64,000 nucleotides of DNA from Prostheceraeus crozeri (taxonomy: Eukaryota; Platyhelminthes; Polycladida; Euryleptidae), in assembly GCA_907163375.1 (NCBI GenBank), contig CAJQUW010007737.1, positions 558,001 through 622,000 on the forward strand, in the 5' to 3' direction. Position 1 is the stretch's first letter. The number at the start of each line of letters is the position of its first letter. Positions 5,346 to 23,384 of this stretch are shown in pieces. The notes below the pieces were generated by a model. It worked only from the letters and a program-made list of their open reading frames with translations, did not search any database and was not told the origin of the DNA. The translations under genes and the position numbers were made by a program.

Positions 5346-5394
5346 TGTTATTGCCCAATGAGGATCATCATCCAATGAGAATCAAGCATTTCTG

Positions 5395-5402
5395 TATAAA
5401 TA
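5395..5402 (+). promoter_or_regulatory. TATA box of the left transcription unit
   Basis: TATAAATA lies just inside the left terminal repeat, about 100 bp before the ATG mini-exon at 5501. It probably drives the spliced left-hand genes. Confidence 0.7.
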
Positions 5403-5500
5403 GCGAGCCTTCCACAGTGAGAATCATTCCATCGTTGAATCATACGAGTGACGGACGCACATTTTCTCTCTCTAGTTCCCTGTTCTATTATCCAACTAAA

Positions 5501-6276
5501 ATGGTAAGTCGCTACTTCCCTCCCTCTCCTCCCTTGAACGTAAACTTAATACAATCTTTTTTCATTTTCAGGCATCTACTCCATCTGCTGCACTAGTAGG
5601 ACAAAATGGCGGTCAAACGATACAAGGTTCGCTACGGTCAGATCATCTACAACTGAGGCCAGTGGAAGAAACATCCAAGGTACATAATCCTACACCGCTT
5701 CAGCGTAAATTTAAACAAGCCTTGCGTTATGATAATCATAGCGTAGTACTCCAAACGGGAATGCTCCCTTCCACGGATGTCAAGATAATGCACAATCAGT
5801 ATGGGGACTACATACTGATCCCCGTGAGTCCGTACATTCGCCACCAACTTGATATTATTGAGGAGTACGTGACATTAAATATGGACATTCCTACTCCTCT
5901 TGCTCAAGAGTGGAAGGCGAGAGATGACAAGGATACTCCCTATAGAAAGATTTGGGATGGTAATCACATTTGCCTACCGGTATCACATTGGTGTACTTAC
6001 TATAAGAAGGATGGAGATCAGTCAATACCCATCAGATGCGATGAGCTCGGAGAAGGTACTTGGGATATCCTTTTCAAAGTGAATGGGCTATATTATGGTC
6101 GACACAAAGATAATAAAATAGCCTCTCTCTCCATGCATATGGAATCCATCCTATATATTCCGAAACCACCCAACGTGGACGACATAATTGATCAAATCCT
6201 TAACAGCAGTGGTACGAAGCGCAAGTCGGAGAAGAATGCTACATCAAAACGCAAATCAAAGAAGGAGAATTGCTAG
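5501..6276 (+). CDS. Spliced Polinton protein, leftmost gene (unknown function)
   Basis: Proposed structure is join(5501..5503, 5572..6276), 235 residues. The unspliced frame has no ATG in front of the conserved part. An ATG directly abutting GTAAGT (5501-5509) and an acceptor TTTTCATTTTCAG (to 5571) restore a start with M|AS at the junction and keep the frame open. The intron is 68 bp. The body has a globular, aromatic-rich region ending 'GTWDILFKVNGLYYG', then a lysine-rich tail with two KRK-type nuclear localisation signals and the stop at 6274-6276. I do not recognise the family. Being early-type, nuclear and next to a terminus, a single-strand DNA-binding or genome-terminal protein is possible, but that is speculation. 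Confidence 0.75.
5504..5571 (+). other. 68-bp intron after an ATG-only coding exon
   Basis: The donor GTAAGT sits immediately after ATG, the tract CTTTTTTCATTTTCAG is an excellent acceptor, and the downstream frame stays open for 234 codons. The same architecture occurs in the polymerase gene at 21637-21568. Confidence 0.78.
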
Positions 6277-6310
6277 TCCTTTCCTAACTCTACCCTATGA
6301 CAATTCGCTT

Positions 6311-6436
6311 ATGTGCTTTGAGTGTCGTAGACGTGGTCTTATTAGATACATTTTACTTCTTCGTTGCCATCATATCATTTGTGTATTTTGTCGTGAAAAG
6401 CATCGATGTAATTCTTCATTTTGTAATATGTTATAG
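6311..6436 (+). CDS. RING-like cysteine/histidine mini-protein
   Basis: A 41-residue frame opens with ATG TGC and has the ordered pattern CFEC, then CHHIICVFC, then later Cys residues, resembling the first half of a RING or B-box zinc site. The frame stays open upstream into the preceding gene, so a spliced start or a longer product is possible. It sits between the leftmost gene and the exonuclease-like gene. Polintons and related viruses often carry small RING proteins, sometimes acting as ubiquitin ligases. Here the C-terminal half of the metal site is short, so it may be a remnant. Confidence 0.4.
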   Translation: MCFECRRRGLIRYILLLRCHHIICVFCREKHRCNSSFCNML

Positions 6437-6470
6437 AACGTTTCCTTAGATGTGTAAATTTCCGTTTTAG

Positions 6471-7019
6471 GCTTCTATCATCATTTTTATGGATTGTGAG
6501 GGTGAACCTGTACAGGAGCTCAGTGCTATTGCTATGAACAATTGGACATATCAGATTGTTAGTGTCTATCATCATCATGCCAACTGCGATCCCAATGTTG
6601 ATCAATGGGCGAGAAAACACATTCATGGACTTAATCTGAAATATTTGCAAGACTATGGCTTTTCTTGTGAAAGTGCTCTTCTTATTGACTTTAAACGATG
6701 GTTAGCTGCTTTCAATGTTATACGCATCTTTTGTAATAATCCTGGTAAGGAGAGGAAAGTATTTCCCAATCTAATCATTGATGATATTTTGCTCCCGCCT
6801 TGGGATAGTAGAGTGAATCAACATTATCATGAAGTTACGAAACGTTTTAAGGATTTGTGTGTTCCTATTTTGTCTGTTCGTTGTAGTAGCTACGTTCATA
6901 ACCAATGCTTCTTTCCTCCTTACCTCAACACTGCCAAAGTCCTGTATGGTTATCATTGCTCGCTGTATGATAGTTATCAGCTGTATCTATTTTATCTCTT
7001 TCAAACCATTGATTTATAA
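6471..7019 (+). CDS. DEDDh (DnaQ-like) exonuclease-like protein
   Basis: An open frame follows the acceptor TCCGTTTTAG (to 6470). Without splicing the first ATG is 6489, which would cut off the hydrophobic first strand of the fold. With a start delivered by splicing the product begins M|ASIIIFMDCEG (about 183 residues). Motif I is DxE (D9, E11) and motif III is HCSLYD (H163, D168), the H-x4-D of DEDDh 3'-5' exonucleases. Between them is a conserved-looking 'WARKHIHGLN' segment. The motif-II region reads FCNNP with no obvious aspartate, so activity is uncertain. The nearest ATG mini-exon on this strand is 5501, implying alternative acceptor use. A polyadenylation signal follows at 7042. Confidence 0.62.
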   Translation, partial: ASIIIFMDCEGEPVQELSAIAMNNWTYQIVSVYHHHANCDPNVDQWARKHIHGLNLKYLQDYGFSCESALLIDFKRWLAAFNVIRIFCNNPGKERKVFPNLIIDDILLPPWDSRVNQHYHEVTKRFKDLCVPILSVRCSSYVHNQCFFPPYLNTAKVLYGYHCSLYDSYQLYLFYLFQTIDL

Positions 7020-7041
7020 TGCATGCTTGTTACCGTTATTC

Positions 7042-7047
7042 AATAAA
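7042..7047 (+). terminator. Polyadenylation signal of the left spliced unit
   Basis: AATAAA lies 23 bp after the stop of the exonuclease-like gene and ends the early-type transcription unit before the next gene begins at 7107. Confidence 0.5.
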
Positions 7048-7106
7048 TGTTACTATGAGAAGAGTTGTTGTTTTCATGCAATGGATGGGTTAGATAAAGG
7101 GCGATC

Positions 7107-7517
7107 ATGTCTTTCTCAAACGACTGCGGAACATTACGTTTTCATAGGCAAAGTTTAAAAGGAGCTGTTCAAGATTATGTGATAAATTTTCATAAAGATG
7201 AGACCGACATCGAAGCAGTGGTCGATGATGCTAGCACTCTATTTCTAGAGTTAATGAATACATTCTCTGATAGCATTGTCATGGCGCGATTAGTTGCGAA
7301 AATTAAGTTTAGTCATTTTGGAAAGGAAGAGGTGGAAAGTCGCTCTTTCCATTTTGCTTCTTATTCAATGGAAGTGGTAGATCACCCCGAAGAATTTTTT
7401 AAAAGACATATGATAAAAATTGCTGAACGTCTTAACGCATTTAACCATCATGGTAGCAGTCTAGTGATTGAAGCGATTTCAGATATTCACATTCAACTTT
7501 CCATAAAGAAAAATTGA
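7107..7517 (+). CDS. Stand-alone homologue of a polymerase N-terminal domain
   Basis: This 136-residue protein starts at ATG 7107. It aligns over most of its length with the region after the second zinc finger in this element's own DNA polymerase (about residues 117-246 there). Shared features are a start of the type 'LRFHRQSLKGAV..Y' against 'IRLTEVSINNLVRNY', a middle 'SIVMARLVAKIKF' against 'FRMKALIYLKIKY', and a C-terminal 'AISDIHIQL' against 'ESALFKISLL'. The function of this domain is unknown to me. A separate copy suggests it works as a partner or competitor at the polymerase complex. An ATGCAAT word 31 bp upstream resembles the late-type motif. Confidence 0.65.
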   Translation: MSFSNDCGTLRFHRQSLKGAVQDYVINFHKDETDIEAVVDDASTLFLELMNTFSDSIVMARLVAKIKFSHFGKEEVESRSFHFASYSMEVVDHPEEFFKRHMIKIAERLNAFNHHGSSLVIEAISDIHIQLSIKKN

Positions 7518-7519
7518 AA

Positions 7520-7843
7520 ATGCAGTGGTACTTGATTGTAGCACAACTGGTTTTCGAGCTATGTCTGCTCACTCTCGAAGTATATTCCTTCTGTACATGC
7601 GTCTATTATTTAGAAAAGGCTAGCAAATTCATATCTTCAAAAAGACTTGCTATAGACATCAGTAACGGTGAAACTATGTGTTGCGATGTATGTAAACGAA
7701 AGGATGGAAATGAAAAGCGCATCTTCAAGAGATGTAAGCATGCTTTTTGTCAACGCTGTTTCATACGTAATTGCATTCAACTTTGCCAATGTAACCACTG
7801 TGACATTGCTCATTTCGAGTGTCACTTATGTCGCAATAGTTAG
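7520..7843 (+). CDS. Membrane-anchored RING-like zinc protein
   Basis: 107 residues starting at ATG 7520, two nucleotides after the previous stop. Residues 3-30 form one hydrophobic segment (WYLIVAQLVFELCLL...), a probable membrane anchor or signal anchor. The second half is a zinc module: CCDVC, then CKHAFCQRC, then CQCNHC and CHLC, in the order expected of a RING finger (C-x2-C ... C-x-H-x2-C-x2-C ... C-x2-C). RING domains bind E2 enzymes and confer ubiquitin ligase activity, so a membrane-tethered E3 acting on host proteins is plausible. Family membership beyond that is not recognised. Confidence 0.55.
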   Translation: MQWYLIVAQLVFELCLLTLEVYSFCTCVYYLEKASKFISSKRLAIDISNGETMCCDVCKRKDGNEKRIFKRCKHAFCQRCFIRNCIQLCQCNHCDIAHFECHLCRNS

Positions 7844-7848
7844 TGCCT

Positions 7849-7855
7849 ATGCAAA
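7849..7855 (+). promoter_or_regulatory. Late-type motif ATGCAAA
   Basis: ATGCAAAT lies 60 bp before the start of the basic protein at 7909. It is one of six exact copies placed before structural or late-type genes. Confidence 0.5.
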
Positions 7856-7908
7856 TGTGGTAAAGATAGGTTTTAGCAAAGACTAACACGGAAAATGGCG
7901 AAACGTAA

Positions 7909-8250
7909 ATGACGAAACGTAAAAGTCAAAAGTTTTCTTCAGCCATTCAAGCTCTCCGACGAATGAAAGCAAATCAGCGATACAATGCTATACGACATGC
8001 TAACGATAAATTCATTTGTGAAATTATTTCTCATGTGAGGAAGTTGAGGACGAAGAAATTAGCACCAAAACAACGAAAGTTACTTAAGCGATATGCTACA
8101 AAATTGCGTTTCATCTCCAATCCTAAAGTCGCCCTTCAAAGAAAGAGGAAAACTCTAACACAAAAGGGCGGTTTCCTTTCAGCAATACTTCCAATGATAG
8201 CTCCTGCCGTGGGCAACCTATTGGGAAATATCTTTGGCTCTAAGCGTTAA
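7909..8250 (+). CDS. Small basic protein with C-terminal amphipathic Gly/hydrophobic tail
   Basis: 113 residues. The first 85 are very rich in Lys and Arg. The C-terminus is a hydrophobic, glycine-spaced stretch (GGFLSAILPMIAPAVGNLLG) ending SKR. This layout is common just before the ATPase in Polintons and resembles adenovirus-type internal or core proteins with membrane-active helices. The likely role is DNA condensation or membrane interaction in the particle (inference). An alternative ATG at 7896 closes after a few codons. The stop at 8248-8250 abuts the next gene's promoter motif. Confidence 0.7.
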   Translation: MTKRKSQKFSSAIQALRRMKANQRYNAIRHANDKFICEIISHVRKLRTKKLAPKQRKLLKRYATKLRFISNPKVALQRKRKTLTQKGGFLSAILPMIAPAVGNLLGNIFGSKR

Positions 8251-8252
8251 TT

Positions 8253-8259
8253 ATGCAAA
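8253..8259 (+). promoter_or_regulatory. Late-type motif ATGCAAA
   Basis: ATGCAAAT is 29 bp before the ATPase start codon and directly after the preceding stop codon. Confidence 0.55.
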
Positions 8260-8281
8260 TGTTGAGTTTCAAAGTAATAAA

Positions 8282-8899
8282 ATGGATTTCAGACTTCAAT
8301 GTGATAAAGTTCTGACTGTATCAGGTCCATCTCATGCAGGTAAAACTGTTTTCACGCTGAATTTATTGGATAAAAGAAGGGAGTTGTTTAAGGAACCTAT
8401 CAATCGAGTGATTTGGTGTTATGGTATTTATCAACCGTCGCTGTTTCAGGAATTGCAAAGTCGCAACTTTATTCGACATGAAGGAATTATTCCAGTGGAT
8501 AAACTTCAGTCTAATGATGTTGTTGTATTGGATGATTTATTAAAAGAAAGTAAGAATTCAAAAGATGTTACAGATATGTTCACTCGCGCAGCACACCATA
8601 AAAGGTGTTTTATCATCTATATTACACAAAATTTGTTTCCTGATGGAAAAGAAGCTCGTACACGAAACCTGAATACACACTATTATGCTATTTTCAAGAA
8701 TCCGCGAGATAAAAGTCAATTTGAAATTTTAGCGCGACAAGTTGCACCCAGAGGATCAAAAGCCTTAATTGAAATTTTTCAAGCAGCTACTGAAAAACCA
8801 TACGGTTACTTATTCATTGACTTTACGCAAGAGTGTCCGGAAGAATTTAGATTTCGAAGTGATATTTTGAAAACTCCCATGATTATCTACAAACTATGA
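8282..8899 (+). CDS. FtsK/HerA-type genome-packaging ATPase
   Basis: 205 residues from ATG 8282; the frame is open upstream but has no earlier ATG. The Walker A motif is GPSHAGKT near residues 14-21, the Walker B is VVVLDD, and a following 'IIYITQNLF' segment fits the sensor strand with glutamine. This is the A32-like packaging ATPase conserved in Polintons, virophages, adintoviruses and large DNA viruses, which pumps the genome into preformed capsids. Length is typical of Polinton versions. Its stop overlaps the next start (ATGA), so the two are probably co-transcribed. Confidence 0.9.
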   Translation: MDFRLQCDKVLTVSGPSHAGKTVFTLNLLDKRRELFKEPINRVIWCYGIYQPSLFQELQSRNFIRHEGIIPVDKLQSNDVVVLDDLLKESKNSKDVTDMFTRAAHHKRCFIIYITQNLFPDGKEARTRNLNTHYYAIFKNPRDKSQFEILARQVAPRGSKALIEIFQAATEKPYGYLFIDFTQECPEEFRFRSDILKTPMIIYKL

Positions 8900-9588
8900 G
8901 TTCTTATTCTCGCATGATTGTTATTCCTCAGGATGAATATGTACAATTGACTGCCATGCAGCAAGTAAAGCAACCTCTTGCAAATCAAATGTATAGGAAA
9001 GAAATAGATTATCAGCAAAATGTTCACATCAAAGATCCACATCGTGCTGTATTATTACAATCGGAAACTGTTGAGCAATTGAAAAACTTGAAGAATAAGA
9101 TGCGTGACTCTGTATCGACTGCTACACCTTTAGCATCTCGCGCACATGCCATATCTCTTTTCAACAGTATTGAACCCCATCTCAATGTAAATGATAGAGG
9201 AGAAATCATTACAGATGAAAATAAAGTGATTGATGCTTCACGTTATGAAGACTTGATTCAGTATGCAACACGTAGAAAGCGCCGTCAGGGCTATGTTCCA
9301 CCTGGTTGGTCATACTTTCTTAAACTATTGAAAAAGCATAATGTGCCAAAATTTGCTTTAAATAATGAGACATTGAAAGAACTTGATTCAACAGTGGCTA
9401 CTACTCCAATGCTTCAGGCGATGAAAATGCCAACAAATTGGTTTAAGACGTCACCTGCTACATCCCCTCCCACACTCACTAAGCAAACAAGAGGAAGAAC
9501 TCGACGTAGATCTACATCATCACTAAAACTGGTAAAAGGAAAACGTAAAACAGCTCCTCCTAGGAAATACATGTTCTCAGACTATTAA
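8896..9588 (+). CDS. Conserved Polinton protein downstream of ATPase
   Basis: 230 residues overlapping the ATPase stop by 4 nt. The N-terminal half is polar and helical. A central segment contains 'YVPPGW' followed by 'FLKLLKKHNVPKFAL', a pattern I associate with a widespread Polinton family of unknown function. The C-terminal 50 residues are Ser/Thr/Arg-rich (RGRTRRRSTSS, KGKRK), suiting nucleic acid binding or nuclear import. Position inside the packaging and capsid block suggests a virion or assembly role. Confidence 0.72.
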   Translation: MSSYSRMIVIPQDEYVQLTAMQQVKQPLANQMYRKEIDYQQNVHIKDPHRAVLLQSETVEQLKNLKNKMRDSVSTATPLASRAHAISLFNSIEPHLNVNDRGEIITDENKVIDASRYEDLIQYATRRKRRQGYVPPGWSYFLKLLKKHNVPKFALNNETLKELDSTVATTPMLQAMKMPTNWFKTSPATSPPTLTKQTRGRTRRRSTSSLKLVKGKRKTAPPRKYMFSDY

Positions 9589-9589
9589 T

Positions 9590-9805
9590 ATGAAGCAGAT
9601 GTGTTGCTTGCCATGTAATGAGCCGCCAGAGGTGAATGTCGTTGTCACTTGCACTTGCTGCGCCAGCTCTCATAATGAAACCCCTAAGCAATGTGAACAC
9701 GATCGCAAAACCGCTAAAGCTAAATGCTGCAGTTGTTGTAAATGTAGAAAGGCAAGAAAACAAAAAGATGAGAAGGAGGAAAAAGAGTCAGCCGTCATCG
9801 ACTGA
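9590..9805 (+). CDS. Cysteine-rich small ORF overlapping the integrase start
   Basis: 71 residues starting two bases after the preceding stop. It contains CC, CTCC and CCSCCKC clusters (11 Cys) followed by a charged Lys/Glu tail. It overlaps the N-terminal part of the integrase gene in another frame. It could be a genuine metal-binding protein, an uORF affecting integrase translation, or fortuitous. The immediate ATG after the upstream stop and the clustered cysteines are the only support. Confidence 0.35.
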   Translation: MKQMCCLPCNEPPEVNVVVTCTCCASSHNETPKQCEHDRKTAKAKCCSCCKCRKARKQKDEKEEKESAVID

Positions 9806-10856
9806 ACGTTTGAAGTCAATCTATTATGATGTAAAACATCCGGCAGGATTTGCATCTATCAAGAAATTATCAAAAGCGAGTGGTCTTCCACAATCACAAG
9901 TGAAACGATGGTTAAAGGGTCAGGCTACCTATACACTCCACAAACAAGCGAAAAAGAAGTACCGCACCCGCCATTATATTGTTCATGACATCGATGAACA
10001 GTGGCAAGCAGATTTGTGCGATGTTGCCTCCATTTCAAAACATAACTCGGGCAATAATTTTATTTTAACCGTCATTGATATTTTCTCGCGTTATGCGTGG
10101 GCTCAACCTTTAAAAACTAAAGAAGGGAAAGGAGTAGCAAAAGCATTCCAAACAATTTTTCGAGAAGGTCGCATTCCAAAAAGAATTCAGAGTGATCAAG
10201 GAAAAGAGTTTGAAAATCAGCATGTGACAAGATTATTTGAGAGGCATGACATTGAGTTGTTTAGTGTAAAGAGCGCTTATAAAGCTGCACTCGTTGAACG
10301 TTTTAATCGCACATTAAAAAATCGCTTGTGGCGACATTTTACTGCCAACTTGACACAAAATTGGACAAAGGTTCTACAAGATACACTCCATGCCTACAAT
10401 CACTCTATCCATCGTTCTATTGGACTCAGACCAGTAGATGTAAATGCTGACAATGTAGATAAAGTGCGCGAATCATTCCAACGTAAACGCACTCATGTGA
10501 AAAGTGATGTGAAAATTGGCGATAAAGTTCGTATCTCAAAAGTGAAAAGTGTTTTTGCTAAAGGGTACCTTCCGAATTGGACAGAGGAGGTATTTACAGT
10601 ATCAAGGATTAATCAAAAAGACTCTCCGACCACCTACAAGTTGAAAGATTACGATAATGAAGAAATTGAGGGTAGCTTTTACCGCGATGAGATTGAGGTA
10701 GTCACTGAAAGTGAAACATATTTGGTAGAGAAAATCATTCGATGTAAAAAACGGCAAGGTGAAGAATGGTGTCTTGTTAAATGGACTGGTTATCCTTCAA
10801 GTATGAACTCTTGGATGCGTCGTGCCGACATCTTTCATCTAAGTGATCGACAGTGA
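9675..10856 (+). CDS. Retroviral-type integrase with chromodomain
   Basis: About 393 residues if started at ATG 9675; a later ATG at 9768 is equally possible and would still contain all domains. The rve catalytic core has the triad D113 (WQADLCD), D174 (QSDQGKEFEN) and E208 (LVERFNR). A helix-turn-helix-like region 'ASIKKLSKASGLPQSQVKRWL' lies before it. The C-terminus carries an SH3-like segment and a chromodomain with aromatic cage candidates ('EEWCLVKWTGYP...SWMRRADI'). In Polintons this enzyme inserts the linear genome with 6-bp target duplications, as seen around this copy. The chromodomain may steer insertion to methylated-histone chromatin. Confidence 0.95.
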   Translation: MKPLSNVNTIAKPLKLNAAVVVNVERQENKKMRRRKKSQPSSTERLKSIYYDVKHPAGFASIKKLSKASGLPQSQVKRWLKGQATYTLHKQAKKKYRTRHYIVHDIDEQWQADLCDVASISKHNSGNNFILTVIDIFSRYAWAQPLKTKEGKGVAKAFQTIFREGRIPKRIQSDQGKEFENQHVTRLFERHDIELFSVKSAYKAALVERFNRTLKNRLWRHFTANLTQNWTKVLQDTLHAYNHSIHRSIGLRPVDVNADNVDKVRESFQRKRTHVKSDVKIGDKVRISKVKSVFAKGYLPNWTEEVFTVSRINQKDSPTTYKLKDYDNEEIEGSFYRDEIEVVTESETYLVEKIIRCKKRQGEEWCLVKWTGYPSSMNSWMRRADIFHLSDRQ

Positions 10857-10859
10857 TTC

Positions 10860-10866
10860 ATGCAAA
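10860..10866 (+). promoter_or_regulatory. Late-type motif ATGCAAA
   Basis: ATGCAAAGTTG lies 38 bp before the start at 10898. The extended form ATGCAAAGTTG is also found at 14374, so the conserved motif may be longer than seven bases. Confidence 0.55.
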
Positions 10867-10897
10867 GTTGTAACTAACAATGTTTAGGGTTTGAGCT

Positions 10898-11353
10898 ATG
10901 AATCCAACTGCCTCATTTTATTCACGACCCTCCTATGTAAGTGGCGGAGGACAAATTTACATCGGTGCTCGCCGCCAACGTGGAGGAAGCATACTTGGTG
11001 CACTGAAATCTGTTGTAGCACCTCTCATATCCAATGTCGGTAGATCTTTAAAACGAAATGTTTTAAGTAATGCCGTTGGCTTTGCTGGTGATGTTGCTAG
11101 TGATCTTTCCAGAGGTAGAAGTTTTAAGAGCAGTTTGTTGAATCGTGGGAAGGAACGCGGTTTAAAAACATTGAAGCAGACCATTGCTGGTGTTACTCAA
11201 GGAAAGAAATCACCTAAACGAATGAATAAAGGAAGGAGGAAACATCGCGGAGCTGGTAAGGTGCGATCTTCAGTCAAAAGGCATTCACGCAAACGTCGCA
11301 GAGGCTCTAATCATTCATCAGGCGCTAAACGACGACGCTGCTATAACTTCTAA
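10898..11353 (+). CDS. Basic glycine/arginine-rich core-like protein
   Basis: 151 residues. A Gly/Arg-rich N-terminus (YVSGGGQIYIGARRQRGGS) leads to an alternating hydrophobic helix region (ILGALKSVVAPLIS...), and then a strongly basic tail with repeated Lys/Arg/His (RRKHRGAG, KRHSRKRRRGS). It resembles adenovirus-type core or precursor proteins that condense DNA and are cut by the viral protease. A 'GG' followed by hydrophobics is a possible cleavage context, but this is not proven. It ends 2 bp before the capsid gene start, so both probably share the transcript from the ATGCAAA motif upstream. Confidence 0.65.
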   Translation: MNPTASFYSRPSYVSGGGQIYIGARRQRGGSILGALKSVVAPLISNVGRSLKRNVLSNAVGFAGDVASDLSRGRSFKSSLLNRGKERGLKTLKQTIAGVTQGKKSPKRMNKGRRKHRGAGKVRSSVKRHSRKRRRGSNHSSGAKRRRCYNF

Positions 11354-11355
11354 TC

Positions 11356-12633
11356 ATGGAGTGTAAAACTTCCGGTTTTTGTTTGTTCGATCAACAAGCC
11401 ATACAGACAGATATTCTTAGTTCAAGTATTGTAGATTATCATCCTCGAACAGCTGAGAATGCTGGCCCCATTGAATTTGTTATTCCTGGTGGTAGTGATG
11501 ACTACATAGATTTGAGTTATGCGATGCTTGATTTGAGGTTTAGAATTCAGCAAGCAGATGGAACTGCTATTGACGATGCACATAAAGTTGGACTGAACAA
11601 TTTACCATTGACTACATTACTTCGTGATGTTTCTCTAACGATTGGAGAGCAGCAGGTGGAAGGTGGTCAAAGCGATTATCCCTATAAATCATATTTCAAT
11701 CATGTATCACAGTTTCATCCAGCAGCACAAAAAAGTCATATGGAAGCCATGGGATGGTACAGAGATGAAGCAGGAAAATTTGATGTTGAAACAAACAGTG
11801 GCTTTGTAAAGCGATCTGCTATGATTAAAGATAGTAGAGTATGTCAGCTATATGGTCCGCTGAATTTAGACTTCTTTAGACAGTCAAAGTTTTTACTGTG
11901 TAATACCAGCATGCGACTCAAGCTGACATTGAATAAGCCTGAATTTGCGCTGAATGCATTTGCTAAAGTTGACAATTTTAGAATTCATGTGGAAGATATT
12001 GCACTTTACATTCGTCGAGTAGTACCGAATCCAAGTGTCATTAGAGGGCATGCTGAAGGTCTTAACCGCCAAAATGCCATTTACCCCGTTCAGCATACAA
12101 AGCTTCTCACCTTTACAATTCCGAAAGATCAAAAGAGTTTCATGAAAGATGGCCTCTTTCCATCGGAAGCGCCGAAGCTCCTCATGGTGGCAATGGTTGA
12201 AAATGATGCATTTAATGGTAATATAAAGAAGAATCCTTTCAATTTTAAACACAATCAGTTAAGTGAAATTGCTTTACGTGTTAATGGTGTGAGCCATCCT
12301 GGTCCACCCTACAAACCAGATTTTGCTTCGGATCAATTTATGCGCAGTTATGTTGATTTTATGGATGTTTTTGGCTTTTACAATACGGATGATACCAACG
12401 GACTGACTATGAAAGAGTTTAAGAGTGGATATACTATTTATGCATTTGATTTGACTGCTGACAGCGATATTAGTGCACCCTATCGTCAAGCGAACGTGCC
12501 TCATAATATTCGTTTGGATTTGACGTTCAAAAGAACACTACCTGAGACGATCAATGTATTAATTTATGCAGTCTTCGATTCAAATATTGAAATTACAAAG
12601 TATCGTGACGTGATTCTTCAGTATAATCGTTAA
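11356..12633 (+). CDS. Double-jelly-roll major capsid protein
   Basis: 425 residues. It belongs to the family often labelled 'F54H12.2-like' in animal genomes and recognised in Polintons as the capsid protein. The N-terminal strand 'IEFVIPGGSDDYIDLSY' and the C-terminal 'GYTIYAFDLTAD' followed by 'RLDLTF' and 'VLIYAVFD' match the signature ends of the double-jelly-roll fold shared with large DNA virus capsids. Length is short compared with mavirus but within the range of the fold. The stop and the protease start share a base (TAATG). No frameshift or internal stop is seen. Confidence 0.85.
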   Translation: MECKTSGFCLFDQQAIQTDILSSSIVDYHPRTAENAGPIEFVIPGGSDDYIDLSYAMLDLRFRIQQADGTAIDDAHKVGLNNLPLTTLLRDVSLTIGEQQVEGGQSDYPYKSYFNHVSQFHPAAQKSHMEAMGWYRDEAGKFDVETNSGFVKRSAMIKDSRVCQLYGPLNLDFFRQSKFLLCNTSMRLKLTLNKPEFALNAFAKVDNFRIHVEDIALYIRRVVPNPSVIRGHAEGLNRQNAIYPVQHTKLLTFTIPKDQKSFMKDGLFPSEAPKLLMVAMVENDAFNGNIKKNPFNFKHNQLSEIALRVNGVSHPGPPYKPDFASDQFMRSYVDFMDVFGFYNTDDTNGLTMKEFKSGYTIYAFDLTADSDISAPYRQANVPHNIRLDLTFKRTLPETINVLIYAVFDSNIEITKYRDVILQYNR

Positions 12634-13094
12634 TGAGTTGGTTGACTGCTGACGATATTAAGACTAAAGTGCAGCGTAATGCAGACGAAGCGACGTTGAA
12701 AGCTTTCGATAATGTCTATTCACTCGATACCTTACCACCTGCAGTAAATCACTATCCCATCTTTATTGTGCTAAACACTCATTCACAGAATTTAGGCGGT
12801 GAGCATTGGAAAGCGATCTTTATTGGAGAAGACCGACGTGGTGAACTATTTGACTCTCTTGCTCAACCTCCAAATATACCGACACAGCAGTGGTTGAGAA
12901 AACATACGCGTCAATATCAGCGAAATGAACGCATACTACAACATCCACTTTCATCAACGTGTGGTGCTTTTGTACTGTACTTCATCTTAAAACGTTTACA
13001 TGTATCTCGATTTGCATCTGTTATTCAAAACTTTTCATGTAATCCATCCTCTAATGAAAAAATGATTTGTAAGTTCTATCATGATTTGAAATAA
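12633..13094 (+). CDS. Adenain-like capsid maturation cysteine protease
   Basis: 153 residues, overlapping the capsid stop by one base. The catalytic set is visible: His58 in GGEHWKA, Asp74 in ELFDSLAQPP, Gln103, and Cys110 in SSTCGAF, with the seven-residue Gln-Cys spacing of adenain (C5/C48-type). In Polintons and adenoviruses this enzyme processes structural precursors late in assembly. Its position directly after the capsid gene is usual. The stop codon is embedded in an AATAAA signal (13090-13095). Confidence 0.93.
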   Translation: MSWLTADDIKTKVQRNADEATLKAFDNVYSLDTLPPAVNHYPIFIVLNTHSQNLGGEHWKAIFIGEDRRGELFDSLAQPPNIPTQQWLRKHTRQYQRNERILQHPLSSTCGAFVLYFILKRLHVSRFASVIQNFSCNPSSNEKMICKFYHDLK

Positions 13095-13125
13095 AAACAT
13101 CATGTTGGAAAAATTGTTTTTTATT
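13090..13125. terminator. Overlapping convergent polyadenylation signals
   Basis: Plus-strand AATAAA at 13090-13095 overlaps the protease stop. Minus-strand AATAAA at 13125-13120 overlaps the stop of the TBP-like gene. The two convergent genes are therefore separated by only 26 bp. Confidence 0.65.
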
Positions 13126-13666
13126 TTACAATCCGCTGGGTACGTACATACTCAATGAGATAGTCTAGGATCATATTTGCTTGTTCATGAGATTTTAGTC
13201 CAGTAATGATCACTTTACTATTATGAAAGATTGCCACATGCACAGGTAACCAACAACTAATGAGAGCTGCAGGAAAAAGTTCGGGTTCATAACACAAACT
13301 GTAACTGCTGGTACGAATCTTCAAAAATGATAGACTGTCACTCAATTGAGTAGAGATCACCATATTGTCCACAGTCAGATTCGACATCACACACCTCTCC
13401 CTCTTCCATATCCGACGTAGTAGTCTTTGTAGCTCTAAGCGCATTGACTGCGCCGATGAATGAGAAAGGGCGCCGAGAATCTGTACAGTCCCATTTGGGA
13501 AGAGTTGAAGATTCCGTGAATTGTTCATCTTCACCACTAACATTTGAGGACGGCCCGGGTAATACTTGCTGTTTGGAAGCTGTTGGTGTAATGTTGTGAG
13601 ATCGATTTTGGTGTAGAGTCTGAAGCGACGGAGAATGTTGACGATGGTGTAGCGATGGCGCTTCAT
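13121..13666 (-). CDS. TATA-binding-protein (TBP) homologue
   Basis: 181 residues from ATG at 13666, almost exactly the size of the conserved TBP core. Two pseudo-symmetric repeats are visible. Repeat 1 (about 8-88) has 'IVNILRRFRLYTKIDLTTL', then 'NSKYYPGR', then 'LFPNGTVQILGA'. Repeat 2 (about 98-176) has 'VDNMVISTQ', then 'CYEPELFPAALI', then 'HNSKVIITGLKSHEQA'. The SYEPELFP-like box and the paired 'F.NG.v...GA / F..SKvI.TG.K' strands are diagnostic for TBP. The protein should bend promoter DNA and recruit TFIIB-like factors. Divergence suggests specificity other than canonical TATA. The frame remains open upstream of the chosen ATG, but only through the neighbouring gene. Confidence 0.82.
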   Translation of the reverse strand: MKRHRYTIVNILRRFRLYTKIDLTTLHQQLPNSKYYPGRPQMLVVKMNNSRNLQLFPNGTVQILGALSHSSAQSMRLELQRLLRRIWKRERCVMSNLTVDNMVISTQLSDSLSFLKIRTSSYSLCYEPELFPAALISCWLPVHVAIFHNSKVIITGLKSHEQANMILDYLIEYVRTQRIVK

Positions 13667-13988
13667 GATGAAAGAATGAGTAAATTGAGCGATGTACCTT
13701 CCTTTTATACTTTTCCCAACTACCTTGATGAAATGTGAAGTTAGTATGCAGTTGGGAATGATAGAGTTGAATTCGCCGATTGTTGACGCGCAGCCAGATG
13801 CGATTTCCAATACGTGAATGTCTTTTCATATAGAAGTATTTCAAGTCCTTCATGATATGATGTAGAGATTGAAAATGACGATAAGATAAAGCAAACTCTC
13901 TTCTCACATTTCCAGTTGAATCTTTGAAATAGACGTTTCGATCATGATCCGTTTCAATACGTTGTAGGGAATCCAATTTCCAACTCAT
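13338..13988 (-). CDS. Possible PC4-fold DNA-binding protein, copy 1
   Basis: 216 residues. The first ~108 align with the neighbouring 14011-14367 protein: 'LDSLQ', 'NVYFKDSTGN', 'FALSYRHFQSLHHIMKDLKYF', then 'RIWL', 'IQLYHSQ' and 'WEKYKRKVHRSI'. The strand-strand-strand-helix pattern, repeated twice, recalls the PC4/p15 single-strand DNA-binding coactivator fold, but no residue is diagnostic and this is tentative. The last ~107 residues overlap the TBP-like gene in another frame. That tail is Ser/acidic (DMEEGEVCDVESDCGQ) and may be overprinted or fortuitous. An ATGCAAA motif is 35 bp upstream. Confidence 0.55.
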   Translation of the reverse strand: MSWKLDSLQRIETDHDRNVYFKDSTGNVRREFALSYRHFQSLHHIMKDLKYFYMKRHSRIGNRIWLRVNNRRIQLYHSQLHTNFTFHQGSWEKYKRKVHRSIYSFFHHEAPSLHHRQHSPSLQTLHQNRSHNITPTASKQQVLPGPSSNVSGEDEQFTESSTLPKWDCTDSRRPFSFIGAVNALRATKTTTSDMEEGEVCDVESDCGQYGDLYSIE

Positions 13989-14010
13989 GATGTGTGGTAG
14001 TCATGTCTGA

Positions 14011-14367
14011 TTAAGATTTGCATAGTAGGGCGATGAACTCACGACGAATAAATGTCATGATGGAGCGATGTATGTATCTTCTATACTTCTCCCAATTGTA
14101 TTTGCGAAATGAGAAACAGTTTGCGGAATGAGAATGGTAGATTTGAATTTCATTTCTGTAATGTTGAAGCCAAACTTGATCACCCAAGGAGATGAATCTT
14201 AATGTTTCAAAATATTCCAAATCCCTCATGATATCATTGAGGTTGACAAATTGTCGCCATGTTAATGTAATTCCTCTTGATGTATGACCATGAGAATTTT
14301 TGAAATGTACGTTTCCATCACGATCAACTCTGATATATTGTAGAGAGTCCAAAATCCAAGTCTTCAT
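14011..14367 (-). CDS. Possible PC4-fold DNA-binding protein, copy 2
   Basis: 118 residues from ATG at 14367. Paralogous to the adjacent gene over its whole length, including at the DNA level around the start (ATCATGAAGACTTGG against ATCATGAGTTGG). Motifs: 'LDSLQYIRVDRDGNVHFKN', 'RGITLTWRQFVNL', 'LGDQVWL', 'EIQIYHS', 'NYNWEKYRRYIHRSI'-like helix. It lacks the long acidic tail of copy 1. The fold guess (PC4-like) rests on pattern only. Only 35 bp separate its ATG from that of the divergent gene at 14403. Confidence 0.55.
   Translation of the reverse strand: MKTWILDSLQYIRVDRDGNVHFKNSHGHTSRGITLTWRQFVNLNDIMRDLEYFETLRFISLGDQVWLQHYRNEIQIYHSHSANCFSFRKYNWEKYRRYIHRSIMTFIRREFIALLCKS
14017..14023 (-). 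promoter_or_regulatory. Late-type motif ATGCAAA (minus strand)
   Basis: ATGCAAA read on the minus strand, 35 bp before the start codon at 13988 and inside the 3' end of the upstream gene. This minus-strand copy shows the motif follows gene direction. Confidence 0.5.
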
Positions 14368-14402
14368 GATGTTATGCAAAGTTGCAGATTAGCAATATAA
14401 AA
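14368..14402. promoter_or_regulatory. 35-bp bidirectional promoter region
   Basis: The whole interval between two divergent start codons contains ATGCAAAGTTG at 14374 (plus orientation), then TTAGCAATATAA before the plus ATG. There is no room for long leaders, so both transcripts must have very short 5' UTRs, or start inside the opposite gene. Confidence 0.55.
14374..14380 (+). promoter_or_regulatory. Late-type motif ATGCAAA
   Basis: 29 bp before the start at 14403, the same spacing as the ATPase gene motif. Confidence 0.55.
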
Positions 14403-15800
14403 ATGTCGTTTTATCATATTTTGCTTAGCAATGCGGCTACAAAGAGATTTACTAGCAATCGAGCCGCACTCTTTTCTACTCCCATTGATCATGCACAACA
14501 GCTAAATGGAAATTGGGAAGTGGGTGTCACTCAACTTGTTTATAGCAACTGTGTCTATACTTTTGATCATGAGGTGATGACTATTAATATGAGGCGTACA
14601 GCTGCTTATCAATGTGAAAAGGGGTGCCGAGTATACATTCCACAGTGGCCAAAGAAAGATCTCTTATCATGTAAAAAGTTTATATATGATTTCTTGAATA
14701 AAGCGTGTAAACATATTGTCCAATTTACTCCGCACAATGATGATTATAATTATGTACATCATGTAGTTGAGAAAGATTGGATTGTTGGTTTAAGTCCAAG
14801 TTTAAGAAATGATTTAGGCTACCTCGCTAGCGCCTTAACAAGCTATGATAATTTTAACGTTAATTACCACATAAGTGGTCATAAACAGTTAATATATCGA
14901 GAGGAAGCTTATTATGTAGATCTTATTCCAAGAAATGAGAAGACGTTGGTGAAGAAGATTGTGATTAAACCAAGAAAGACAAACATGACTCCTGAAACAT
15001 TATTGAAGAAATTTAATTATCTCCTTCGAGTTGATGGTAAACAAGTGGCAACATTGACTTATATCAAATCATCTAATCATATTGCAATAAGCAAATTAAA
15101 TGATGATGATCTAGTATTAGTTTGTTCAAAAGATTTTCATCAGTTCTTACGACATCGTTCTGCAGCTGTTCATGGAAAATCTGATATGCAACATTTACCA
15201 TGTGAAAGGTCAAATCAATTTGATACAGAATGGGCCGTATCTTTATACAGAAAGTGTGTAGAGCCTTTTGGTGGTTTCTTACATGAAACAAGAGTGTTGA
15301 TGCCTCGCATTATTACTTCGGTTAAATTGGTTGTAGATTATTTAAATGAAGTGATTAATGAGCAACATATTTCATTTTCTGAAAAAGAAGGTACTTTGTC
15401 TCTCACTATAAGTGGAAAAGGTATTGAACTAATTATGGATAAAACTCTAATGGACATTTTGGGTTTTGACCAAAATATCTTTAAAAGTGGTACTGTAACC
15501 AAAGCTAGCGCAGACATGTCGCTATCGCGTCGTATTAACTATTTTCAGATATATTCCAATATTGGTGAAGATGTACGTGTGGGAGATGTTGAAGCTCCAT
15601 TGCTAGCAATGATACCATACCAGCCAAAGAGCTGCAGTATTTTATCTGAGCATACTTTCAAGAAAGTGCATTATACAAAGCTGAAATCAAACTACATCCC
15701 ACAAATTGATATTGCCATTTATGACGATGCTGGTGCGTTGATTCCTTTTCATAAAGATGCTGTGACAAGTATCACACTCCATTTCCGAATGAAGAGTTAA
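14403..15800 (+). CDS. Polinton minor structural protein, paralogue A
   Basis: 465 residues from ATG 14403; the frame is open upstream without an ATG. The N-terminal module 'LLSNAATKRF...' leading to 'LNGNWEVGVTQLVY' and the C-terminal module 'VGDVEAPLLAMIPY', 'AIYDDAGALIPF' and 'ITLHFRM' define a family found in many animal Polintons next to the capsid genes. Similar segments repeat inside, for example 'IVGLSPSLRNDLGY' and 'ELIMDKTLMDILGFD', suggesting a multi-domain beta-rich particle protein such as a vertex or fibre component. The exact role (penton or spike) is inferred from position only. Confidence 0.7.
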   Translation: MSFYHILLSNAATKRFTSNRAALFSTPIDHAQQLNGNWEVGVTQLVYSNCVYTFDHEVMTINMRRTAAYQCEKGCRVYIPQWPKKDLLSCKKFIYDFLNKACKHIVQFTPHNDDYNYVHHVVEKDWIVGLSPSLRNDLGYLASALTSYDNFNVNYHISGHKQLIYREEAYYVDLIPRNEKTLVKKIVIKPRKTNMTPETLLKKFNYLLRVDGKQVATLTYIKSSNHIAISKLNDDDLVLVCSKDFHQFLRHRSAAVHGKSDMQHLPCERSNQFDTEWAVSLYRKCVEPFGGFLHETRVLMPRIITSVKLVVDYLNEVINEQHISFSEKEGTLSLTISGKGIELIMDKTLMDILGFDQNIFKSGTVTKASADMSLSRRINYFQIYSNIGEDVRVGDVEAPLLAMIPYQPKSCSILSEHTFKKVHYTKLKSNYIPQIDIAIYDDAGALIPFHKDAVTSITLHFRMKS

Positions 15801-15806
15801 TGCAAA
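15800..15806 (+). promoter_or_regulatory. Late-type motif ATGCAAA
   Basis: Overlaps the stop codon of paralogue A and lies 40 bp before the probable start of paralogue B at 15840. Confidence 0.5.
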
Positions 15807-15839
15807 CGTATGCTAATATATTTTTCCAATGTGAATAAT

Positions 15840-17360
15840 ATGGAAAGTGAAAATAAGGACTCGTTTCTAATCTACTTGCCCAGTAATGCTTCTATGAATA
15901 AATTTCCCAAAAATAAACCATCAGACTATCGAGTAGAATTAAATCGCCCACTGCATTTAGAAGGTGAATGGGAGGTTGGCGTTTCTAGTATTTGCTATGA
16001 TAGCAATATTCAGAATGTGAATGATTTGGAAGAAATGATATTGACTCCTCGCACCCATGATGGAATAACGATGAATAATGCATTTCAGTTCCCATACAAT
16101 TTAACATCAGATGGAAAGTGGAACTATGAATGGATTCAGATAAAATCAGATTCTTATGAGCCATTTGGGAATGAGAAAATTATTAAGGCATTCAACAGTG
16201 GTAATACTTCCATCATGAAGAATAAAAATCAGAAAGCTTATGAGTTTACTATCTATCATTGGAGTGGGAGACAGTTCCTCCGCTTTCATTCTTTTACTAA
16301 AGGTCTTACGCTGAGGTTGGATAGTGAATTCTATCCACATCTTGGTTTTGGTCATGGACTACATCTAACGTCAATTGCTACTGCAAATGTTAGAAAAGTT
16401 TATTCAAATCGAATCAACAAATTTCATTATAGATTTAAAATATTTGATGAAGATGTTGTAGAATGCGAAGAACGCATCATTTTGAAAAAGCGTGGTGTTC
16501 AACCTTTATCACTTATTGAGTTAGTAAAACGATGGAATGAGACTGTGGGTAAGAAGTATGGAGAGAAAATTATGGCGGACAAAAATAAGTTGGTTATTCA
16601 GAAATATAATGACAAACTTACAGTTTATTTCTCTCCAACCTTGCGTCATTTTGTAAGACATTATACACCTATTATTGGAAGCGGTGTGGTGTATGCTTCT
16701 CATGAATATCACACTAAAGCTGATTCAGTTAATGATGAATGGTGGGTGGACATCTATGGCGATCGCATCAAGAAAATTTACCAGTCTTATGAAGAATCTA
16801 AAGTTGCTATCAATATAATGCCGCGTCTATATCATACAGTTGAAAGCTTCATTCATGTAGTAAATCCTTATATACAACAGAAGTTGAAGCATGTGATGAA
16901 AAGTAAATATGATGTAAAGACACACCACATTTCGTTTTCAATTGAAAATCAACGCGTTGTTCTGAAACTGGGTGATGACATTCAATGTCAATTGAGTAAA
17001 AATTTGAAAAAACTCTTTGGTTTTTCAATGCTACAAACTGTGTTTGCTGCTGCGCATACGATTGGTATAGAAACACCAATGACACTTGATAAACATGAAC
17101 AGCACCTTTACATTCAAAGTGATTTGATTCTACCTATTTCTGTTGGTGAGAAAAAAGAATACATTTTACGTGATTTCATTCATGATAAAGACGCTTCATA
17201 TGGAATAGTCGAGAAGATGTTTGAATCTATTTTCTATCATCCCGTCGTCAAACAAACTATACCCTCTATTGCTATCAAAATTACCAATGGTTTACAAGAG
17301 TGCATCCATGTGAAAGATACTAAATCCCTCATAACGTTAGTGTTTCGGAAAACAAAGTGA
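15840..17360 (+). CDS. Polinton minor structural protein, paralogue B
   Basis: 506 residues from ATG 15840; an in-frame ATG at 15810 would overlap the promoter motif and adds a poor leader. The N-terminal 'FLIYLPSNASMNKFP' followed by 'LHLEGEWEVGVSSI' is the canonical form of the family described for paralogue A. The C-terminal 'LYIQSDLILPISVGEKK' and 'ITLVFRK' correspond to the same terminal module. The two genes are therefore a tandem duplication that has diverged strongly. Paralogue B keeps the more usual N-terminus and paralogue A the more usual C-terminus. Probable capsid vertex, spike or fibre protein. Confidence 0.7.
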   Translation: MESENKDSFLIYLPSNASMNKFPKNKPSDYRVELNRPLHLEGEWEVGVSSICYDSNIQNVNDLEEMILTPRTHDGITMNNAFQFPYNLTSDGKWNYEWIQIKSDSYEPFGNEKIIKAFNSGNTSIMKNKNQKAYEFTIYHWSGRQFLRFHSFTKGLTLRLDSEFYPHLGFGHGLHLTSIATANVRKVYSNRINKFHYRFKIFDEDVVECEERIILKKRGVQPLSLIELVKRWNETVGKKYGEKIMADKNKLVIQKYNDKLTVYFSPTLRHFVRHYTPIIGSGVVYASHEYHTKADSVNDEWWVDIYGDRIKKIYQSYEESKVAINIMPRLYHTVESFIHVVNPYIQQKLKHVMKSKYDVKTHHISFSIENQRVVLKLGDDIQCQLSKNLKKLFGFSMLQTVFAAAHTIGIETPMTLDKHEQHLYIQSDLILPISVGEKKEYILRDFIHDKDASYGIVEKMFESIFYHPVVKQTIPSIAIKITNGLQECIHVKDTKSLITLVFRKTK

Positions 17361-17665
17361 AGTCTTTATACAACATTTATTGAAATATGTACATGAATGT
17401 GAAGCAATAGACTTTATACAACATCCACTGAAAATATATACATGAGCGCACTTCAATAAACATTGTTATATACAAAAAGTCTTTTTACTTCGTGAAGGGT
17501 GGAAATATACAGGGATAGGAAAAATGTCTTTCAGTGGAAAAGTCATCACATGGGGAATGTACAGATGTGGACACATATTCACAAGGAAAAAACAATCTCA
17601 TGCGATACATAAAACAACAATGTTTATCTACAGAAATCAACATCAAAATACTAAGTTAAGGATGA
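17361..17665. terminator. Convergent 3' ends with polyadenylation signals
   Basis: Between the stops of paralogue B (plus) and the polymerase (minus). Plus-strand AATAAA is at 17455-17460, and minus-strand AATAAA at 17381-17376. A ~50-bp segment (CTTTATACAACAT...) is imperfectly repeated at about 17363 and 17410. No gene is seen. Confidence 0.55.
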
Positions 17666-20600
17666 TTATGCTAAGACGTCTCCTGAATGTGGTAGTGTGA
17701 GTTTAATTCTTTTGGGTGGTGGTATGTTTGTGTCAGGATGTCCATGTGGAAGAGATATGTTGTGTTCTAGCCAGCACCTCTTATCCTCCCATGCTGAAAG
17801 CGCCCGTTTCCTAAAAGTATGAGTTTTGATCTCATGCGACTTAGATTTTAAGATTGTCATATTGACAAACGTTATATTTTTATTTCTATAGGCTTTCCTG
17901 AAATTCTTATGTTTCATATTTTGCACAATGGATTTTGATATGCCTTTAGCGCGCTTAATGCTATCGTCGCTATCCTTTAATTTCATACTGTACATTTTTG
18001 GACGGAGGAGAATCATTTCATCTATTTCCTTCCCTGCTGTCTCATCCTTAAAGCAGCCAAGTTTTGCCTTATTTTTGATGGAGTAGAGTGGATGATCAGC
18101 AGGATAATTTGATGTATCAAAATATCTTTCTAAAGATTTTCCTACTTCATTGAAATTTAAATCTTTTTGAGTGGTAATACCTAAGAAGAAACTATCTGTA
18201 TCACCACCCAACAAACGAACCTCTTTTACGAGAGGACATGGTTTTAGTATTTTATAAAAGAGTTGGTACATTTCAAGCTTTGAGTAATCTAGTACAGCTT
18301 GACCAATATAGATGGGTTTGCACAACTCAACTTCAGATTTTATCATTTTAACACCTATAAGGTCCTCATCGATAATGTCTCTATCGATGAATAGAGGTGA
18401 TGAGACCAATTTGTGATACTTTTGATCATCATTAACTAGTTTGTAGTTTACGCGCTTTCTAACATCCTCCATCGTCTTACCAAATAGACTGTTGTTCTTA
18501 TATTTATAAAAATCTTTTTCAAAATTATTTTGGGCTAGTGCACGTTTCTGGCTGTTGCTATCAATATATGGTTTGAGGAAGGCTTTCTGTCTAAATTTAA
18601 TAATGCGGTGAACTCTTTTTAAAATCATACCCATTTCTAAATAAAATTTTAAGATGCTAAAGTGGACTAGATAGTTTTCTTTATCATACTGGGTGAGTAA
18701 AAGTTTGCGGCAAGGCTTATAGTCGGGTTGACCGCATGATTCTAAATCTTTATGAAATTGTTTCATAAAGTCGGAAAACATATCTTTGGTCACTTCACCT
18801 GATTCGGGTGCGAGTGGAAAATCCACGGTTTTATGTTTAATATTATTTGGATAGATTAGATCTATCTCAAAATAATATCCCCAATCACCTTCATCTGGAA
18901 TTGCTAGTATGTTGGAAGGGTTGGAGAAATGTTGAATTTCACTATCATCTAACCAGCTAAACTCAGAGTGAGGTAGCGGTTTGGATAATGAACTACCATA
19001 CAAATTATTTTGGTCATAATACTTCAGATGAGTCTGGTCATTGCCTACTATTTTTGATTTTAACCTATGTTTATTTACAAATGTGAGACCACCGCGAATT
19101 CCTCGCTCAAATAAATTATACATCTCTGGATCTTGTAAGAGATGAATGGTCTCACCAGTCATTTTAAAAGCAGACTTAAATGACATGGCTGGCAGACTGA
19201 CAAAGTGGACGGGATCTAACTTATCTTCTTCTAATGCCACTCGTCGAAACTCCTGAAATACATCAGCCAGCAAAAATACATCTAACTTAAGGTAGGCAAT
19301 CATATATTCACCAAATGTATGGCAGTCAAATTTTATCCATGCATCTTGTGCATGATCATAATCTTCGGTCTTACATTCTGCACCGGTCAAATCATTTTTA
19401 AATTTATCTATGGGCGGAAGAGAAGTCTCGCCGAGTTTACTAATTGCATCAAAATATGCATATGGAAAGACTCCTTTCCGTGTGATGACTTCATCGGTTA
19501 GATTTGGGTATTGTTTCTTAAGATTTTGTGTTAGTGGAAGAGACTTTAGATTTTGCACGAGAGAGGCCAGTGATGCAGTCATAAATTGGTAGGAATCTAA
19601 AAATTTTATATCAAAATAGACCGTCTTATTTTCTTTAGTTTTATCGACAGGCACTTTTGCTGTCATGGCCATAAACTTCTCTCTCGTTTGCGCTATTACA
19701 TCAAGCTTCCACTCTTTCATTTGACCTAAACCTCCTTTTATTATCATATGGCTGTCGTAGCCCTTGAAATTATGGAAAATGACGGGTAATGTACGCCGCT
19801 TCATCCTCAGCGAAAAATTACATTTTGAACAGAGTGCGTTTCTAAATTTACCAGTGATGTGATCATGGTCGCGCACTTTCTTAATCTTATCATCGTCAAA
19901 TGTTTTCCTACATTTGGGGCAAACGTTGCAACTATCAAATTTTGCTTGATCATCTGCTGTCATATGCAATGATCTGCGATAGAGTTCACCATCATACTTT
20001 TGTTGAAATTTTACAGCCTGTTCGAGGAATTGTAGGAATTGGTAAATACAATCCTCACCTTGCCAGACGCGCATTTTATTTTGCCTACTCCTAAAGTGAT
20101 CATGCCATACTTCATAGCAGGAAATGGCTGCTGGTCGATGGATGTTATCATCGATATAGCATTCGATGTCAGCATAGATGACACGAAGAGGACTTAGTTC
20201 ATCACCATTCTCTCTATATGAAAACTCCTTATCTTTGGGCATGCGTTCCATTTGCAGTTTACCTCGCTTACACCACTCATAATGAGTTTCAAATTTAGTT
20301 TTCCTCCTAAAGTGGCGAATACATCTGTCGCAGTAATATAACTCTCTACTCGAGTTTTCTAAGTGGTGGTATAAGCGAGAGATTTTGGGAATACCGCAGT
20401 AGTGCCATTCCTCACTATCATCCTGTTTTACTAATAACAGGTTTACTGTACGTTCATAACAACTCGAACGCGAGTTGTAGCGCACACCCTTCAATCCTTT
20501 TTCCCAAACATGGAGAACTATTTTAATGTTGTTCAATTTTTCAAATTTTTCTATATCTTTAATTTTCATATCGTCACTATTACAGTCATCGAAGTTTAAT

Positions 20601-21637: not shown

Positions 21638-21806
21638 TTGAACGAAATTATGTTTAAGCTTGATACTTCAACAAGATAGAGACTTCACTCAAATTTGAAA
21701 TTCACTAAAGAGCAGTTCACTTGTACGCCTCAAATACAGAATTCGTCAGAGAACAGTTCAATTATGCGTCTCAAAGACAGAGTGAAATGATACGGATATC
21801 ACTTTG

Positions 21807-21814
21807 CTTATATA
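21807..21814 (-). promoter_or_regulatory. TATA box of the polymerase gene
   Basis: TATATAAG on the minus strand, 170 bp before the ATG exon. The same octamer precedes the coiled-coil gene at 25210-25203. Confidence 0.68.
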
Positions 21815-23377: not shown

Positions 23378-23384
23378 GAGAAAT

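Follow-up and report, generated by a model that had tools for sequence, protein, structure and literature searches.

We analysed a 64,000-nucleotide stretch of the genome of the polyclad flatworm Prostheceraeus crozeri (hereafter the window; assembly GCA_907163375.1, contig CAJQUW010007737.1, positions 558,001 to 622,000), which carries a complete Polinton/Maverick element and, inside it, a gene for a homologue of the TATA-binding protein (TBP). A sequence-only reading had given the exact coordinates of this frame and left its strand unstated; the frame lies on the minus strand (Table 1). It had also placed the gene in a Polinton, and indeed the element ends, the target-site duplication and the integrase surround it. 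The element shows the hallmarks of its class, namely terminal inverted repeats, AGT-type ends, a 6-bp target-site duplication and a retroviral-type integrase with a chromodomain. Vertebrate Mavericks likewise have (AGT)2//(ACT)2 ends and a 6-bp duplication (PMC8097293). TBP is missing from the eight core vertebrate Maverick genes given there, in agreement with the earlier remark that it is not known as a standard Polinton gene. That a TBP homologue is encoded inside a Polinton is, in our judgement, virtually certain.

The identity of the protein was assessed by profile, structure and motif. The two checks named beforehand, a profile match to TBP and a predicted TBP saddle, both came out positive: the protein matches Pfam PF00352 over two stretches (E 4.6e-21; 74.9 bits vs a cut-off of 22.9), and the model of the whole 181-residue frame is a full two-repeat, pseudo-symmetric saddle. 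NCBIfam TBP models match up to 1.5e-19 over residues 4-175, none of them reaching its curated cut-off. With phmmer, 35 distinct PDB sequences were matched up to E 1; they are TBPs or fusions of TBP, one bearing only the name ECU04_1440 protein, and the best match is the archaeal TBP of Methanococcus jannaschii (2z8u, 2.8e-14). Identity to solved TBPs is 19-27% by structural alignment, and against the microsporidian TBP 4wzs the protein scores 44.9 bits, where human TBP reaches 301.5. The CYEPELFP box is present as C125-Y-E-P-E-L-F-P132. Of the two F/NG...TG pairs noted earlier, not both are canonical: the sequence is F56-P-N-G...L64-G65, with L for T, in repeat 1 and F147-H-N-S...T155-G156 in repeat 2.

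Among 5.8 billion proteins searched there were 61 homologues, 34-82% identical over the aligned part, all of which carry a TBP domain (61/61). A first alignment of 38 sequences (37 of them plus the protein of the window, P0001) contains 20 invariant columns; the full family of 62 was used for residue mapping. A maximum-likelihood tree of 69 rows separates this 62-member family, with 100/100 support, from seven cellular sequences, TBPL1 among them, which make up the remaining rows; the branches on either side of the midpoint root, which was placed for drawing, measure 1.51 and 2.26 changes per site. The tree, proposed earlier as a means of telling host capture from an ancient viral origin, shows at the level of sequence that the family has long been separated from cellular TBPs; the direction of transfer does not follow from seven cellular sequences. 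The longest contig is 15-24.7 kb for 7 of the 61 homologues, a size that would fit Polinton genomes. When the contig sizes of the 61 TBP matches were compared with those of the 120 listed of 263 matches to the putative capsid protein of the element, one size was shared (7106: P0016, P0154), where shifted controls gave 0.5 on average; a size is also common to capsid P0069 and small-gene P0066 (11119) and to TBP P0002 and small-gene P0064 (1771). Equal sizes do not prove a single contig, and TBP-capsid linkage is only suggestive on this basis. Phage records gave no match to the TBP homologue or the capsid protein.

The DNA-contact residues of all 62 sequences were then mapped onto yeast TBP numbering. 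In established TBP-TATA structures, the 5' half of the box is read by the C-terminal repeat, which also holds TFIIB, and the 3' half by the N-terminal repeat. The C-terminal repeat is highly conserved in the Polinton family: N159, V161, E188 and F207 are found in 62/62 sequences and E186, F190 and T215 in 61/62, so that the TFIIB-contacting stirrup retains E186 and E188 almost throughout, together with L189 (55/62). In the N-terminal repeat F116 is kept in 62/62, and the position of F99 is P in 58 of the 59 sequences having a residue there. The position of V122 is Q, and that of T124 is L, M or F, in every sequence, while V71 survives in 1 of the 55 sequences that have a residue at that site. 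The phosphate-contact positions R196 and K120 are also variable. As judged from these residues, the contact surface is asymmetric, its C-terminal repeat conserved and its N-terminal repeat altered alike across the family, and the half-changed saddle is a family-wide feature. By the same residues the protein is a diverged TBP homologue, for which we do not claim canonical TATA binding, because only three of the four kinking Phe are kept and T124 is found in 0/62. The asymmetry leads us to predict a box whose 5' half is normal and whose 3' half is abnormal, and continued use of host TFIIB.

A candidate for such a box was found among the 6- to 8-letter words counted in the 80-base stretches that precede the first ATG in each of 20 open reading frames (ORFs). 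ATGCAAA lies upstream of 6 of the 20, where 0.26 were expected; its extension TATGCAAA, with four copies in the whole element, lies upstream of four (0.13 expected). The best-word score of 6.46 (7- and 8-letter words) was reached by none of 2000 sets of 20 random 80-mers drawn from the whole element core, coding sequence included (95% point 4.59, maximum 6.17). Five of the eight copies of ATGCAAA in the core fall in the 308 non-ORF bases of the 9517-base structural block, one of them overlapping an ORF by one base; the sixth upstream copy and the two others are within ORFs. There is no overall enrichment over the flanks, with 8 copies in the element and 16 in the other 41 kb. The genes behind the word are the probable ATPase, the leader of the capsid-protease cluster, two long genes, the gene at 7909 and the cluster of small genes and TBP. 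The word keeps TAT and has a changed 3' half; this fit to the residue prediction, noticed after the residues had been tabulated, is suggestive. A conserved core promoter before TBP, suggested by TATAAAAG and by SIK...H.F strings in the N-terminal extensions of some relatives, was rejected as independent evidence because the same bases encode WEKYKR/HRSI of the upstream gene in another frame.

Two small genes precede TBP in its cluster. The model of the first, built on six sequences (pLDDT 83.8), has the tandem beta4-alpha arrangement of the Pur-alpha/Whirly/PC4 superfamily. The nearest known counterparts are the Pur-alpha, Whirly, PC4 and MRP1-2 single-stranded-DNA-binding folds; in sequence, the small genes match no Pfam family above cut-off: up to E 1, no family was found for 14014-14379, and 13341-13988 matched only Nudix_hydro, at 0.06, under its cut-off. 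The tail of the second gene (13338-13666, minus strand) overlaps the first 108 codons of TBP in the +2 frame. The openness of that frame through the 108 codons exceeds the synonymous expectation, which makes dual coding of this segment probable.

The remaining features of the element are also listed in Table 1. The capsid candidate, which we presume to be the major capsid protein from its size and its place, has 263 homologues (120 listed) and no named family. The long minus-strand ORF may be a protein-primed PolB, as judged by eye from polymerase motifs only; it has no match to a DNA_pol_B family in Pfam or NCBIfam, and no polymerase was found for it among PDB sequences. The frames of the integrase, ATPase, protease, capsid candidate and 1271-residue ORF are uninterrupted, and the element therefore looks young and is possibly still active. 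Among its scanned ORFs no RNA polymerase or TFIIB was matched above cut-off in the 22.8 kb (RNA_pol_Rpb2_45 is sub-threshold at 0.045).

Several further observations were made. The small basic protein at 7909-8250 (+) weakly matches adenovirus core protein X (0.0023, below cut-off). The neighbouring long genes at 14403-15800 and 15810-17360 (+) have N-termini that look paralogous by eye and no Pfam family above cut-off. Ahead of the first ORF, a poly-pyrimidine-CAG at 5550-5571 (+) resembles a splice acceptor and suggests, by eye, a spliced leader exon. P0069, a relative of the capsid candidate (86%), is filed by NCBI in a metagenome-assembled genome of Pseudomonadota and is probably Polinton DNA mis-binned there. 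In the host flank, a QRICH1/DUF3504-type tyrosine recombinase split over two frames (56655-57802, +) is a Crypton-like relic.

Table 1. Features of the Polinton element in the window (positions are those of the window).
Feature	Position	Strand	Remarks
Left target-site duplication copy	3610..3615	+	6 bp, GATGAA
Complete Polinton/Maverick element	3616..26373		22,758 bp; ends AGTAGT...ACTACT
Left terminal inverted repeat	3616..5345	+	~305-bp tandem repeats within; inner limit approximate
TATGCAAA	7848..7855	+	61 bp 5' of ATG of the 7909 gene
TATGCAAA	8252..8259	+	30 bp 5' of ATG at 8282 (ATPase)
Probable packaging ATPase	8282..8899	+	Pox_A32 0.019, under curated cut-off; scanned as 8234-8896
Integrase	9636..10856	+	Pfam rve core 1.3e-10 and chromodomain (Chromo) 6.4e-07
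CATGCAAA	10859..10866	+	39 bp 5' of ATG at 10898, leader of the 10898-capsid-protease cluster
Probable major capsid protein	11356..12633	+	425 aa; no Pfam match
Probable Ulp1/adenain-type protease	12633..13094	+	PF02902 0.0012, just under cut-off
TBP homologue	13121..13666	-	181 aa; ATG-started frame
Second small gene	13338..13988	-	~108-residue domain paralogous to 14011-14367, then 108-codon tail with acidic end
First small gene	14011..14367	-	118 aa; tandem beta4-alpha fold predicted, as in Pur-alpha repeats I-II / Whirly / PC4
TATGCAAA	14017..14024	-	36 bp 5' of ATG of the 13338-13988 gene (cluster includes TBP); within end of upstream ORF
TATGCAAA	14373..14380	+	30 bp 5' of ATG at 14403
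AATGCAAA	15799..15806	+	11 bp 5' of ATG at 15810, or 41 bp 5' of in-frame ATG at 15840
Long ORF, putative PolB	17666..21481	-	1271 residues; C2H2 and endonuclease VII matches
Right terminal inverted repeat	25322..26373	-	shorter of the pair; inner limit approximate
Right target-site duplication copy	26374..26379	+	6 bp, GATGAA

The reading that we tentatively prefer, at a little short of even chances, is that the Polinton TBP is a true TBP-fold core-promoter factor, working for host RNA polymerase II (Pol II) as a promoter selector private to the virus. It would bind a half-canonical box in which a non-TATA 3' half comes after TAT, and for which (T)ATGCAAA is the best candidate; it would then bend the DNA, recruit host TFIIB and, through it, Pol II, and so start the structural gene clusters of the element. 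Because the word also stands before the cluster that ends in TBP, the factor might amplify its own expression. The small upstream proteins, with their predicted single-stranded-DNA-binding fold, would be likely partners, holding DNA that is melted at promoters or being replicated. All of this is inferred: the specificity for DNA, the recruitment of TFIIB, the control of late genes and the cooperation with the small proteins. The asymmetric DNA-contact residues and the word at gene starts lend some indirect support to the earlier suggestion that a TBP of its own would leave the choice of promoters to the element. In its fullest form, the proposal would describe an ancient, virus-only clade of Polinton TBPs with a half re-tooled saddle, whose C-terminal repeat reads TAT and grips host TFIIB and whose N-terminal repeat reads a new 3' half-site, as in TATGCAAA; with Pur/PC4-type cofactors, of which one runs through the TBP gene in a second frame, it would form a minimal private pre-initiation module steering host Pol II to the virion genes of a 23-kb element. 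We consider this whole combination possible, if on the unlikely side.

Several points weigh against the preferred reading. The word was found post hoc and in one element, the non-coding composition of the random sets was uncontrolled, and 14 of the 20 ORFs lack the word, among them the integrase, capsid, protease and PolB genes. The 61 relatives may or may not lie in Polintons, and no DNA of a second TBP-bearing element was found in the scanned viral and genome contigs. The position of K138, which we take to be a TFIIA contact, is mostly E (42/62), so that use of host TFIIA is doubtful on these residues. Canonical TATA boxes are present as well: TATAAAAG lies 43 bp 5' of the TBP ATG (13709), coding in the upstream frame, and others lie at 5395 and 21814. 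These boxes, together with the three retained intercalating Phe and the TFIIB-contact residues, favour a viral TBP that works on ordinary TATA boxes, either boosting the TATA promoters of the element or squelching host TBP by competing for TFIIB and DNA, with no new specificity. That F99, V122 and T124 have given way to fixed new residues throughout the family argues instead for selection on a changed DNA surface, and we find the alternative of ordinary TATA binding doubtful. It is possible that the boxes at 5395 and 21814 are early promoters read by host TBP. By eye, a TCATT-type start-like sequence follows 3' of each, that is, of TATAAATAG at 5395 (+), near the left repeat, and of TATATAAG at 21814 (-), in the divergent PolB/21912 region.

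The word itself could have another owner. ATGCAAAT, the word followed by T, is the POU octamer, and (T)ATGCAAA could thus be the site of a host POU factor or another activator, unrelated to a TBP that is nonetheless real. The final T is present at 3 of the 6 sites, which can be counted for this explanation and, being only half of them, against it; four of the six sites lie 30-39 bp 5' of the start codon, and for a fifth the later ATG would give 41 bp; such spacing is that of a core promoter. We rate the POU explanation as a real alternative, though an unlikely one. The Pur/PC4-like genes and TBP might serve DNA replication, through origin melting and coating of single strands, rather than transcription. 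Pur-alpha and Whirly folds bind single-stranded DNA, and the first small gene matches that fold. In Kaposi's sarcoma-associated herpesvirus, the viral DNA also requires ORF24 to replicate efficiently (PMC6541308). The retention of the TFIIB-contact residues of TBP speaks against a replication role, which appears improbable. The element might also have taken up a host TBP or TBP-like factor recently, as cargo that has no conserved role, in the way that viruses and large transposons are generally known to pick up host genes. No result here points directly to such a capture, which is very improbable given the low identity and score against solved TBPs, the long, fully supported branches separating the 62-member family from the seven cellular sequences, and the twenty invariant columns.

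Compared with cellular TBPs of eukaryotes and archaea (PF00352), the Polinton TBP shares the two-repeat saddle, the minor-groove Asn, three of four kinking Phe and the TFIIB-contact Glu; it differs in its low identity, in the changes F99 to P, V122 to Q and T124 to L in the N-terminal repeat, and in being encoded by a Polinton. The metazoan TBP-like factor TBPL1/TRF2 is likewise a diverged paralogue with an altered DNA surface, and F99 is lost in both (V in TBPL1). TBPL1 also has changes at F116, F190 and V161, three residues that the Polinton family retains, and it keeps T124, which that family has lost.

By function, the closest working analogue would be the TBP mimics of beta- and gammaherpesviruses (ORF24/BcRF1/UL87), which serve TATT boxes about 30 bp upstream of late start sites and contact host Pol II (PMC6541308). 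Both would be viral TBP-like factors serving a changed TATA box with host Pol II, a role only proposed for the Polinton protein. The structural resemblance of the mimics to TBP is putative, and they work as part of a viral complex of six members (PMC6541308), whereas the Polinton protein is a bare TBP core with clear sequence similarity to TBP. Among large DNA viruses, TBP is one of the genes common to Mimiviridae and their relatives (PMC3620924) and is present in megavirus chilensis (PMC11464507); three prasinovirus-like Yellowstone Lake phycodnaviruses (YSLPVs) carry it along with TFIIB (PMC4602308), and in CpV-BQ1 a TBP and two TFIIBs are proposed to redirect host RNA polymerase (PMC12085832). 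Of mirusvirus genomes, 59% encode TBP, the share of Nucleocytoviricota with that gene cluster being 0% (PMC10132985), and asfarvirus B263R is a viral TBP homologue (PMC5825884). These proteins, set beside the Polinton TBP by description, belong to viruses with large genomes, several with their own RNA polymerase or TFIIB, in contrast to an element of 22.8 kb. The sequence-only view of TBP as a host monopoly outside archaea and some giant viruses thus holds roughly, but omits mirusviruses, several algal and amoeba-virus groups, B263R and the herpesvirus mimics.

No report of TBP in Polintons was found in the open-licence PMC literature (preprints excluded). In their available excerpts, PMC10675990, PMC10132985, PMC12220804, PMC4602308, PMC11464507, PMC12085832, PMC3620924, PMC4722103 and PMC7786948 place none there, and PMC10675990 mentions TBPs in green-algal elements, which it ties to mirusviruses and not to its Polinton-like viruses. 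Viral TBPs are already known, and a TBP in a Polinton is, as far as we could find, apparently new. If the preferred reading is true, a private TBP without a viral RNA polymerase would show how a 20-kb virus can impose a promoter code of its own on host Pol II, and would match in compact form the late-promoter machinery of herpesviruses. The half-altered saddle is in effect a natural test of how TBP recognises each half of the TATA box; the long-branch family bears on the source of TBP diversity in viruses.
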